This document shows, in pieces, positions 3,960-59,041 of a DNA stretch of 64,000 nt. Under the pieces are notes generated by a model, which made no database searches, had not been told where the DNA came from, and was given only the letters and a program-made list of their open reading frames with translations. The number at the start of each line of letters is the position of its first letter. Within the stretch, counting starts at the first letter, position 1. The DNA is taken from NCBI GenBank assembly GCA_021730905.1, contig JAKFYK010000062.1:1-64000 (forward strand). The letters are read 5' to 3'. The stretch comes from Betaproteobacteria bacterium (lineage in GTDB: Bacteria > Pseudomonadota > Gammaproteobacteria > Burkholderiales > SG8-41). The position numbers were made by a program, and so were the translations under genes.

Positions 3960-3975
3960 AAAAACAAATAGTTAT
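3960..3975 (+). repeat. Dispersed A/T-rich 16-mer, copy A (A-rich strand on +)
   Basis: AAAAACAAATAGTTAT, one mismatch from the consensus AAAAACAAATACTTAT. It touches the stop codon of the small lipoprotein gene, in the leader side of groESL. Confidence 0.8.
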
Positions 3976-4042
3976 CATACATACCACGCACTACCGGCCA
4001 GCTAACTATCGGCCATTCCTTTGTTTTATTCGTGCCAGCCTA

Positions 4043-4071
4043 TTGAAATTGCTGCAGTACGGCACTATCAT
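4043..4071 (+). promoter_or_regulatory. Sigma-70 promoter of groESL
   Basis: TTGAAA (4043-4048), 17 bases, TATCAT (4066-4071). The -10 box abuts the CIRCE operator, so HrcA bound there would block initiation. No sigma-32 pattern was recognised. Confidence 0.75.
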
Positions 4072-4097
4072 TAGCACTCATCGGAGTTGAGTGCTAA
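4071..4097 (+). promoter_or_regulatory. CIRCE operator (HrcA site)
   Basis: TTAGCACTC (4071-4079), nine bases, GAGTGCTAA (4089-4097): a perfect match to the CIRCE inverted repeat. HrcA repression with relief on heat shock is the established mechanism for this element. hrcA itself is not in the window. Confidence 0.97.
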
Positions 4098-4205
4098 CAA
4101 GGTTTTGGGGCCGGACTATTGGTCTCGCGCCCGTGGTCTCAAGGCTATTCACAGCTACCGCGGCTGCTCCGAAGATTCCGTAACTAATTCAATTGGAGAG
4201 AGCTT

Positions 4206-4493
4206 ATGAAAATTCGTCCGTTGCACGACCGTATCATCGTGAAGCGGCTGGAAGAGGAACGCAAAACCGCTTCCGGTATCGTTATTCCTGACACCGCCGC
4301 TGAAAAACCCGATCAAGGCGAAGTGAAAGCCATCGGTAAAGGAAAAAGAGGCGAAGACGGCAAAGTGATCCCGCTCGACGTCAAAGTCGGCGACCGTGTG
4401 CTCTTCGGCAAATACTCCGGCCAAACCGTCAAAGTTGACGGCGACGAGCTGCTGGTGATGCGCGAAGAAGACATTATGGGCGTGGTCGAGTAA
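4206..4493 (+). CDS. groS: Co-chaperonin GroES
   Basis: 95-residue 10-kDa chaperonin that caps GroEL. The N-terminal [18 protein letters not shown], the mobile-loop region [15 protein letters not shown] (about residues 21-35) and the C-terminal [15 protein letters not shown] are typical. GGAGAG lies about eight bases upstream of the ATG. It is the first gene of a two-gene operon, 42 bases ahead of groEL, under the CIRCE promoter. Confidence 0.98.
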
Positions 4494-4535
4494 TTCGCTT
4501 AAGCAAGCCGCTGAAACTAATCAGGAGAAATAATC

Positions 4536-55795: not shown

Positions 55796-57049
55796 ATGCA
55801 ACTTTACGCCATAGGCCTGAATCATCAGACTGCTCCGCTGAACGTGCGCGAGCAGGTGGTGTTTCACGCCGAGCGTCTGGTGCAGGCGCTGAATGATCTG
55901 GTGGCACGGCGGCCGGTGCAGGAAGCAGCGATTATCTCCACCTGCAATCGCACCGAGATTTACTGCCACGCTGAAGAGCCGCGCGCCGCCGTTGAATGGA
56001 TGGCGGCTTATCACCAACTCAAACCGGCGCAGATCGAACCCTATCTTTACAAATTGCCGCAGGAACGGGCGGTCAAACACGCTTTTCGCGTGGCCAGCGG
56101 ACTCGATTCGATGGTGGTCGGCGAACCGCAGATTTTGGGCCAGTTCAAGGATGCGGTGCGCGCGGCCGAAACCGCAGGCACGCTGGGGCTGCTGCTCAAC
56201 AAGTTGTTTCAGCGCACTTTTGCGGTGGCGAAAACCGTGCGCAACGAGACGGAAATCGGCGCAAGCACGGTGTCGATGGCGTCCGCCGCCGTGCAACTCG
56301 CGGGACGCATCTATCCGAGTATTGCCGAGCAGGCGATTCTGTTTATCGGCGCCGGTGAAATGGTCGACCTGTGCGCAAGCCACTTCGCCGCGCATCACCC
56401 GAAGCGCATGACTTTTGCCAATCGCACCGGCGAGCGGGCACGGCAACTGGCCGACCGTTTTCTCGGCCGCGTGATTTCGCTCAACGATCTGCCGGCGCAG
56501 TTGGCGCTGCACGACATCGTGGTGTGCTGCACGGCGAGCCCGCTGCCCATCATCGGCAAAGGCATCGTTGAAAGCGCGCTTGCCGCGCGCAAACACCGGC
56601 CGATGATGATGTTCGACCTCGCGGTGCCGCGCGATGTCGAAGGCGAAGTCGGCAAGCTCGACGATGTGTTTTTGTACACGGTGGATGACCTCGGCAAGAT
56701 CGCCAGCGCCGGGCTGGCGCAGCGCCAGAATGCGGTGCAGCAGGCCGAAGTGATCATCGAAAACCAGGTGACCGATTTCATGCATTGGCTGGGCAACCGC
56801 GAACTGGTGCCGACGATACGCGCGCTGCGCGACACGGCGGAGCGCGCGCGCCGCAATGAGGTTGAGCGTGCGCTGCGCAAACTGAATACGGGCGAGGATC
56901 CGCAGCGCGTGATCGAGGCGCTGTCGCAAGCGCTGACCAACAAGCTGATGCATCCGCCTACGCATGCGTTGAATCACGCGAGTGAAACAGAGCGCACGGA
57001 ACTCGCCGCCCTGCTGACGCGGCTGTACCAGATACCGCGGCAAGACTAA
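55796..57049 (+). CDS. hemA: Glutamyl-tRNA reductase
   Basis: 417 residues from ATG 55796 ([20 protein letters not shown]). First step of tetrapyrrole synthesis in the C5 pathway: reduces Glu-tRNA to glutamate-1-semialdehyde with [16 protein letters not shown] holds the catalytic cysteine (about residue 50), [20 protein letters not shown] and [15 protein letters not shown] (NADPH domain) follow. First of the hemA-prfA-prmC group; three bases separate it from prfA. Confidence 0.97.
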
Positions 57050-57051
57050 AG

Positions 57052-58143
57052 ATGAAGCAAAGCATAGCCGCGAAACTCGCGCAGTTGTCGAGGCGGCTCG
57101 AAGAAATCAATCGGACGCTGAGTTCGGAGGACGTCACCAGCAATCTGGACAATTACCGCAGGCTGACGCGCGAAAGCGCGGAAATCGCGCCCGTGGTTGA
57201 ACTGTATCGCGAGTATGAAAAGAGTGAAGGCGACCTCAAGGCCGCCGAAGAAATGGCCGCCGATCCACAGATGCGCGAGTTCGCGGAAACGGAGAAAACC
57301 GAAATTCGCGCGCGTCTCGATGAACTCGAGAGCGAGTTGCAAAAACAACTGCTGCCGCGCGATCCCAACGACGAGCGCAATATCATTTTGGAAATCCGCG
57401 CCGGCACCGGAGGCGAGGAGTCGGCGCTGTTCGCGGGCGAGTTGTTCCGCATGTATTGCCGTTATGCCGAGCGCAATCGCTGGCAGGTCGAGATCATGTC
57501 GCAGAACGAATCCGATCTGGGCGGATTCCGCGAAATCATCGCAAAAGTCATCGGCCGCGGCGCTTACTCCAAACTCAAGTTCGAGTCGGGCACACACCGC
57601 GTGCAGCGCGTGCCGGTGACCGAGACGCAGGGCCGAGTACATACGTCGGCGTGTACCGTGGCAGTACTGCCGGAAGTCGATGAAGTGAGCGACGTGGTGT
57701 TGAACCCAGCTGACCTCAAGATCGACACCTTTCGCTCGTCGGGCGCGGGCGGCCAGCATATCAACAAAACCGAATCGGCGATTCGCATTACGCATTTGCC
57801 CACCGGCATCGTGGCGGAGTGCCAGGATGGCCGCTCGCAACACAAGAACAAGGCGAGCGCGATGTCAGTGCTTGCCGCGCGCATCAAGGACAAGCAGGTG
57901 CGCGAGCAAAACTCGAAGATCGCCGCCGAGCGCAAATTGATGGTGGGCAGTGGCGACCGCTCCGAACGCATCCGCACCTACAATTTTCCGCAGGGACGCG
58001 TCACCGATCATCGCATCAATCTCACGCTGTATAAAATCGCGCAGATCATGGACGGCGATATCGATGATGTTACCGGCGCGTTGGCCGCCGAGCATCAGGC
58101 CGAGCAACTGGCGCAGCTCGCCGAAGAAATGCAGCCGGCGTAA
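57052..58143 (+). CDS. prfA: Peptide chain release factor 1
   Basis: 363 residues. Recognises UAA and UAG and triggers peptide release. The GGQ motif is in [17 protein letters not shown] (about residue 235), with [19 protein letters not shown] before it. The GGQ glutamine is methylated by PrmC, encoded two genes on. Confidence 0.98.
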
Positions 58144-58166
58144 CCGCGTCGGCATCCTGTAGCGCG

Positions 58167-59018
58167 ATGGCCGCCGCCTACGCTCTCATCGCCGCGGCGC
58201 TGTTCGGCGCGGCCCTGGTCACCACGCAGTTTGGGTTGCGGCACATGGATGGGCTCGCCGGCGCGAAAGTCAGCATCCCGTCGGCGACGGCATTGCTGTG
58301 GCTGCTGCTTCCGCTGCGCGAGCTCAAAGGGTGGGATACTCCGGCGGCAGGCATATTCCTTGCCCTTGGGCTGTTCTTCCCGGTGGCAGTGACACTGCTC
58401 GCGTATGAGGCCAACCGGCGCATGGGGCCGACCATCGCCGGCGCCATTGGCAGCACCGCGCCGCTGTTTGCGGTATTGGGCGCAGTGCTGTTTCTCGGTG
58501 AAACGCTGGGAATCACGCAGATGATTGCGACGGCAGCGATTGTGTGCGGGTCCGTGGCGCTGGTGTGGCGCAGCGGCGGCTCGTTGCGCGGTGCCGCGTG
58601 GATATCCTGGGTAGCGTGGCTCGCGGCGGCGTTGCGCGCGCTGGCGCAGGTCATCGCCAAGGCGGGTTTGTTGTTGTGGGCCAATCCCTATGCGGCTGCC
58701 GTGCTGGGCTACTCAGTATCGGCGGTCGCGATCTGGATCATTGCCGGGTTCAGTCGCCGTCCGGAATCGCGTGTTTACACGCGCCGCGGCGTTTTGTGGT
58801 TTGTGCTGACGGGGCTGTTCAACTGTTCCGCGGTGCTTGCGCTGTACACGGCGCTTGACGGCGGCGCGGTGAGCATCGTGTCGCCGATTGCCGCGACCTA
58901 TCCGATGTTCACGCTGGTGCTCAACACCGTTATTCTGCGCGAAGAACGCCTGAGCGCGCGTTTGATCGGCGGTGTTGCACTCATGGTGGGGGGTGTCGTA
59001 GCATTACTGGTACAATAA
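58167..59018 (+). CDS. EamA/DMT-family transporter
   Basis: 283 residues, about ten hydrophobic segments in two EamA repeats (AALFGAALVTTQFGLRHMDG in the first; SIVSPIAATYPMFTLVLNTVI with ILREERLSARLIGG in the second). A drug/metabolite-type permease of unknown substrate. It interrupts the usual prfA-prmC adjacency and is followed by copy I of the dispersed repeat, which makes up the gap to prmC. Confidence 0.88.
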   Translation: MAAAYALIAAALFGAALVTTQFGLRHMDGLAGAKVSIPSATALLWLLLPLRELKGWDTPAAGIFLALGLFFPVAVTLLAYEANRRMGPTIAGAIGSTAPLFAVLGAVLFLGETLGITQMIATAAIVCGSVALVWRSGGSLRGAAWISWVAWLAAALRALAQVIAKAGLLLWANPYAAAVLGYSVSAVAIWIIAGFSRRPESRVYTRRGVLWFVLTGLFNCSAVLALYTALDGGAVSIVSPIAATYPMFTLVLNTVILREERLSARLIGGVALMVGGVVALLVQ

Positions 59019-59025
59019 AATGTTT

Positions 59026-59041
59026 AAAAACAAATACTTAT
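59026..59041 (+). repeat. Dispersed A/T-rich 16-mer, copy I (A-rich strand on +)
   Basis: AAAAACAAATACTTAT, exact consensus. It lies between the EamA stop (59016-59018) and the prmC ATG (59040-59042), and its last two bases are the A and T of that ATG. Confidence 0.85.

Follow-up and report, generated by a model that had tools for sequence, protein, structure and literature searches.

The DNA analyzed here, a stretch of 64,000 nucleotides (the window) from contig JAKFYK010000062.1 of a Betaproteobacteria bacterium (assembly GCA_021730905.1), carries eight copies of an A/T-rich 16-mer, all of which lie at gene junctions according to simple gene calls. Coordinates and strands agreed with those of a preliminary description of the sequence (three copies are exact, four have one mismatch, and one has two), and the 16-mers at 50921 and 59026 overlap stop or start codons by a few bases. 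Each 16-mer forms the central part of a longer profile (about 36 bp), which we consider to be a probable site of the strong type for integration host factor (IHF, i.e. IhfA/IhfB), acting as a bend between genes (estimated probability 0.77). The copies are not due to chance: 100 dinucleotide shuffles of the window gave a mean of 0.16 matches with up to three mismatches (standard deviation 0.39, maximum 2), and the chance figure of 3 × 10−5 in the preliminary description is correct for a uniform base composition. Most likely, they result from a lineage-specific expansion of IHF-type sites.

The genome assembly of the window (G000; 5.1 Mb in 182 contigs, 91.7% complete) contained 585 copies with up to two mismatches (287 and 298 on the two strands), compared with 4 for the pattern read backwards. 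This corresponds to about one site per 8 to 9 kb, and the window is therefore not special.

Structure of the element

For the profile, 40 stretches of 20 kb were combined with the window (864 kb of G000), with genes taken from a simple codon-usage caller. A total of 98 sites with up to two mismatches to the 16-mer were aligned together with their flanks. Relative to the 16-mer, conservation began at about −16 and ended at about +24, with none beyond. The left arm was an A/T tract at positions −11 to −6 (0.9–1.6 bits per position). In the spacer between this tract and the core, position 0 was T in 94% of the sites, positions −2 and −1 were A or T, and only position −3 was free. The right arm comprised AAACAA at positions 3 to 8, four bases that were mostly ATAC or ATAG, and TTA at positions 13 to 15. 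Positions 1 to 16 of the profile are biased toward the 16-mer, because the sites were picked by their likeness to it. An iterated version drifted to plain A/T-rich sequence (644 matches at threshold 16 vs. 492 in base-reversed sequence) and was dropped.

The element would thus be composed of an A-tract arm, an 8-nt spacer, and a core WAACAA-N4-TTA, possibly a lineage variant of WATCAA-N4-TTR. A spacing of 8 nt is that of the IHF site H′ of lambda. The IHF sites of Escherichia coli are described as 35 bp long, with WATCARNNNNTTR on the right side and, in most of the strongest sites, an A-tract on the left (PMC8421141). The element agrees with this description in its length, in the side of its A-tract, and in eight of the nine fixed core positions, which are present in all eight window copies. 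The statement in the preliminary description that known IHF patterns do not fit was therefore wrong. The published core was not matched exactly by the window copies, but it was in the relative G169 and in part of the sites elsewhere. A ninth place in the window (45381, three mismatches) had only six of the nine fixed positions and was excluded.

A general pattern leaving spacer and N4 free was used for the core-triplet, family, and order counts. With W6-N8-W-xxx-AA-N4-TTR, seven core triplets were searched in the 864 kb, yielding 77 matches for AAC (9 in the reversed control), 4 for ATC (0), and 0 or 1 for each of the other five; only WAACAA and WATCAA exceeded the control. The elements of the window are listed in Table 1.

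Table 1. Copies of the IHF-like element and further sites matching the general pattern in the window
Feature	Position	Strand	16-mer or core	Context
IHF-like element	3946..3981	+	3960-3975; core AAACAAATAGTTA	overlaps end of small gene 3569-3958 (+); groES-like gene (named by appearance) follows at 4206
IHF-like element	25608..25643	+	25622-25637, exact	between tandem (-) genes; strong hairpin adjoins left side
IHF-like element	28601..28636	+	28615-28630, exact	between tandem (-) genes; abuts start of 27748-28599 (-)
IHF-like element	34770..34805	+	34784-34799	at stop of 33813-34775 (+)
IHF-like element	42135..42170	-	42141-42156	convergent junction, 42120 and 42177
IHF-like element	50915..50950	-	50921-50936	overlaps TAA stop of 49962-50924 (+); abuts start at 50952
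IHF-like element	53936..53971	-	53942-53957	upstream of 53981 (+)
IHF-like element	59012..59047	+	59026-59041, exact	contains ATG at 59040 of prmC-like gene
Additional site, general pattern	31918..31953	-	31924; core TAACAATTGCTTA	divergent junction
Additional site, general pattern	62307..62342	-	62313; core AAACAATTGCTTA	divergent junction

Placement relative to genes

Placement was evaluated for 113 sites in the 864 kb (10 in the reversed sequence), defined by up to two mismatches to the 16-mer or by a match to W6-N8-WAWCAA-N4-TTR. Ninety-nine of them lay at junctions, as compared to 12.7% of the sequence being gaps between genes; 12 were inside called genes, some close to gene ends, and two fell into neither count. 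Tandem gaps held 78 of the 99 junction sites vs. 62% of the gap bases (p = 0.0006). Divergent gaps held 14 and convergent gaps 7, the latter showing no enrichment. Within tandem gaps, 37 sites pointed with the genes and 41 against them (p = 0.73). Of 36 sites in tandem gaps longer than 120 bp, 16 were found within 30 bp after the stop codon (6.6 expected, p = 0.0006), as were 13 of 18 in gaps of 51–120 bp (8.4 expected, p = 0.02). No excess was detected near starts, with 9 sites (6.6 expected) in the longer and 5 (8.4 expected) in the shorter gaps.

Of the 77 tandem gaps containing a site, 40 follow a TAA stop, compared with 234 TAA stops among all 781 genes; a TAA can also be provided by the element. 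Part of the placement has a plainer cause, as an A/T-rich 36-mer can hardly evolve within GC-rich coding sequence.

As for the genes themselves, many scattered solute-binding-like genes, presumably of the Bug/TctC type, lie near CoA-transferase-like genes at 28838-60885 of the window (assigned by sequence appearance, with no profile run).

Distribution among related genomes

Among 300 genomes of the order, the 16-mer (one mismatch) was abundant in eight, with 36 to 370 copies, all belonging to the genera g1 and g2; the remaining 292 had at most 2 copies. With either A or T allowed as third base, the general pattern gave 161–778 matches in the same eight genomes vs. 2–53 in the control. Outside these eight, at least 30 matches at eight times the control were found only in G205 (45 vs. 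0; mostly another type of repeat among the matches listed), G293 (44 vs. 3), and G077 (37 vs. 4), and five genomes (G032, G074, G262, G279, and G292) had at least 30 matches at four to six times the control. None of 274 genomes of the class besides G000 reached at least 100 matches at five times the control, the nearest being G526 (377 vs. 90). In 60 genomes of the family, enrichment was defined as at least 30 matches over both cores and four times the control. Genera g1, g2, g138, and g139 were enriched, and g135, g136, g137, g140, and g3 were not, except for the genomes G293 and G335. Within the genomes sampled, only a few genera, all from a single family, showed strong enrichment.

The use of the two cores differed considerably between these genomes. 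G000 had 37 WATCAA and 484 WAACAA sites, and G169 from the same genus had 616 and 24 (T share 96%). The T share was 85% in G344 and a fifth to about half in the other g2 genomes. In g1 it ranged from 7 to 25%, apart from G169, G329 (43%), and G324 (60%). Among the matches listed for g139, N4 was varied, as IHF allows.

Five metagenome-assembled genome (MAG) records titled Bordetella parapertussis (L121, L122, L124, L127, and L128) encode HemA proteins 92–94% identical to that of the window, among environmental MAGs. These titles look like mislabelling.

Conservation at orthologous junctions

A 20-kb stretch of G000 containing six sites was searched in six genomes of the same genus. Where G000 has a site, the relative had a match in 6 of 11 readable comparisons: in all 3 at one junction, in 3 of 4 at a second, and in 0 of 4 at three further junctions together, where some near matches were seen by eye. 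At junctions without a site in G000 (gap of at least 16 bp), the relative had a match in none of 14 comparisons, in 2 of which it has no gap. The difference corresponds to a Fisher p of 0.003 (14 comparisons) or 0.005 (12 with a readable gap); these values are rough, since the comparisons share junctions and genomes and hence are not independent. Shared sites kept their orientation, and their flanks had diverged. At one junction, an A core was present in G000, G345, and G263, and a T core in G169.

Similar variation was seen before the prmC-like gene at 59040 (named by its position near prfA and its appearance, with no profile run). An A-core site was found in the relatives L126, L127, and L130 and a T-core site in L135; L123 had only a looser likeness, and L146 had no gap. 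In the more distant L142 and L144, prfA itself precedes the prmC-like gene, and the site there has the opposite orientation. Neither the site nor the neighboring gene was found in L121, L122, and L124. These varied states indicate that sites have been shared, but also lost, changed, and re-formed.

At other junctions of two relatives, L285 (G169:C113) and L284 (G329:C116), there are REP-like palindromic blocks as well as a repeat built from units of the TGACGCAGAT type.

IHF and HU genes in the family

IhfA scored over the cut-off in 53 of the 60 family genomes, and both IhfA and IhfB were highly conserved where read. In G263, both proteins exceeded the equivalog cut-offs and matched the E. 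coli IHF chains of known structure. A scan of the ihfA and ihfB loci gave a core-type match at only two, L071 and L084, and hence no sign of IHF sites at IHF's own genes.

HU was assigned to 20 of the 60 genomes: an HU-type sequence was read in 17, and G331, G343, and G339 were assigned from scores or a partial hit. One HU run against NCBIfam matched HU models best, below their curated cut-offs. No HU was detected in the 32 genomes of g1, g2, g138, g139, and g140. Enrichment of the element was observed in none of the 20 genomes with HU and in 30 of the 40 without detected HU, several of the latter (including G000) being incomplete and lacking other DNABII genes too. The weakest enriched genomes were G324 (55 vs. 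12) and G344 (154 vs. 21); the highest count in a genome with HU was 13. Enrichment without detected HU was also found in G293 (98% complete) of g3 and G335 (72% complete, outside the tree described below) of g135, two genera whose other members mostly have HU and show no enrichment.

Third DNABII copies at L109 (G324:C113) and L231 (G350:C29) are divergent IhfB-like paralogs. Three g140 genomes without detected HU (G305, G314, and G318) had extra matches that are of the IhfA type by score.

Evaluation of alternative explanations

Several observations weigh against a reading as IHF sites that bend the DNA. At the third core position, the published consensus has T and the window copies have A, and no residue change in the compared IhfA and IhfB sequences tracked the use of A or T. 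The element is more specific than IHF needs: the spacer is constrained, and N4 was ATAC in 41 and ATAG in 13 of the 77 sites found with N4 left free. No PF00216 protein at all was found in the G000 assembly. As ihfB of G263, together with some 300 bp of flanking sequence on either side, likewise has no match there, this absence suggests a gap in the 91.7% complete assembly. Divergent gaps, where promoters lie, showed no enrichment, and in 5 of 11 ortholog comparisons a site of G000 had no matching site in the relative. With respect to HU, ten genomes without detected HU were not enriched (G301, G308, G317, and G327 of g136; G305, G310, G314, and G318 of g140; G321 and G334). Moreover, the link to HU is mostly that of one clade. 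In a tree of HemA and PrfA (52 of the 60 genomes), g1, g138, g140, and g2 formed one clade (0.996), joined by g139 (0.918), and absence of HU there is therefore likely one event, so that the association is not independent.

Specificity beyond the needs of IHF (N4, spacer, and flanking T-A), a core change not explained by IhfA/IhfB residues, and the missing IHF gene in G000 would also fit another sequence-specific protein of the clade, with the likeness to IHF sites arising by convergence or a shared A-tract preference. We consider such a protein unlikely, given that the A-tract placement and eight of nine fixed positions match IHF and that relatives carry the exact IHF core with varied N4. Judged by sequence, the binder is probably IHF. 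Of the three meanings offered in the preliminary description, that of a site bound by a nucleoid or regulatory protein is thus supported, with IHF, which had been dismissed there, as the protein to which the sequence points.

The other two meanings were not supported. A signal of transcription or translation, i.e. a promoter, terminator, or leader, could account for the closeness to stops and starts, including the 16 of 36 sites in the longer tandem gaps, and a strong hairpin with a U-rich tail is found next to one of the eight copies. This hairpin (25580-25618, −18 to −20 kcal/mol, with U-rich stretches) adjoins the copy at 25622 and looks like a terminator; the absence of a dyad reported earlier applies to the motif itself but not to its surroundings at this copy. 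However, orientation was indifferent to the direction of the genes (37 vs. 41), and no promoter- or terminator-like match was found at four copies within 24500-44400 by a scan that also misses the hairpin at 25622. In addition, RNA segments of 51 nt spanning the eight copies were each at most 1.5 standard deviations more stable than shuffles (z −1.5 or higher), this length cutting the hairpin at 25622. A wider flank was folded for that copy only, and hairpins beside other copies were searched only within 24500-44400. Such a signal thus appears improbable. Even less credible is a tiny mobile repeat that inserts at gene ends by copy-and-paste, as might be assumed from hundreds of near-identical copies, many of them packed against stop or start codons. 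Target-site duplications, which are characteristic of miniature inverted-repeat transposable element (MITE)-like repeats, were not above pairing controls (k 5–9). Twelve matches between flanks among 112 flanks presumably reflect paralogous genes, and sites are common to orthologous junctions whose flanks have diverged.

Proposed role

At each element, IHF would be expected to wrap about 35 bp and to bend the DNA sharply. Several hundred of these elements are intergenic, mostly between tandem genes, and they are overrepresented in the first 30 bp behind stop codons and occur in either orientation. If IHF is the binder, the chances are about even that its role is architectural rather than the regulation of single promoters. 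The likeliest use would then be that of fixed bends, pinning supercoils or marking gene borders. IHF is reported to pin plectonemes, to buffer supercoiling, and by bridging to divide DNA into topological domains (PMC9519438). A role of this kind fits because the sites sit in gaps and in either orientation. The bends might also replace HU in part, a protein that was not detected in any enriched genome; we regard both the HU link and the architectural role as hypotheses. A more far-reaching scenario is less likely than not: the lineage would have lost HU, IHF would have become the main chromosome organizer with hundreds of strong conserved sites as gene punctuation (pinning supercoils or insulating transcription units), and the preferred core would then have shifted between T and A from one lineage to another.

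An ordinary promoter function may apply to some copies, as suggested by one sigma-54-like case. Of four intergenic sigma-54-like promoters in the 864 kb, one had an IHF-like site with the canonical T core 17 bp upstream, possibly by chance. It lies at L062 (G000:C3), near contig position 141727-141775, beside a cluster that is nitrite reductase-like by appearance. Upstream of a sigma-54 promoter is a usual place of IHF (PMC7962754).

Comparison with known systems

Compared with the E. coli sites, the elements described here have A as third core base and mostly ATAC or ATAG as N4, and occur as hundreds of near-identical copies at junctions. Boccard and Prentki reportedly described, in 1993, the RIB elements or bacterial interspersed mosaic elements (BIMEs) of E. 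coli as IHF-binding repeats at the 3′ ends of transcription units. Like the present element, they are IHF-type sites that recur between genes, frequently right behind the end of a gene. In our case, the overrepresentation of sites in the 30 bp that follow stops in tandem gaps, with no enrichment in convergent gaps, refers to gene calls and not to mapped transcription units. In contrast to BIMEs, the element of about 36 bp is not part of a larger repeat, and no flanking palindromic units (PU, or repetitive extragenic palindromes, REP) appeared in the profile of 98 sites, with a hairpin beside one window copy. Uptake signal sequences and KOPS-like genome-wide motifs are likewise dispersed as hundreds of short copies, whereas the present element is bound to gene junctions, has a long A/T-rich profile, and is equally frequent on both strands. 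An exact text search of the literature for the 16-mer returned no paper, and the available parts of publications dealing with intergenic IHF sites or with bacteria devoid of HU contained nothing matching the present case.

HU and IHF overlap in function, and how cells cope without HU has usually been asked by deletion in E. coli. Here, genomes without detected HU appear to carry a written-out array of IHF-type intergenic sites, partly conserved at orthologous junctions. It thus becomes possible to test whether nonspecific packaging by HU can be replaced by specific bends located at the borders of genes. That both A and T are tolerated as third core base is also relevant to the way in which IHF recognizes its site.

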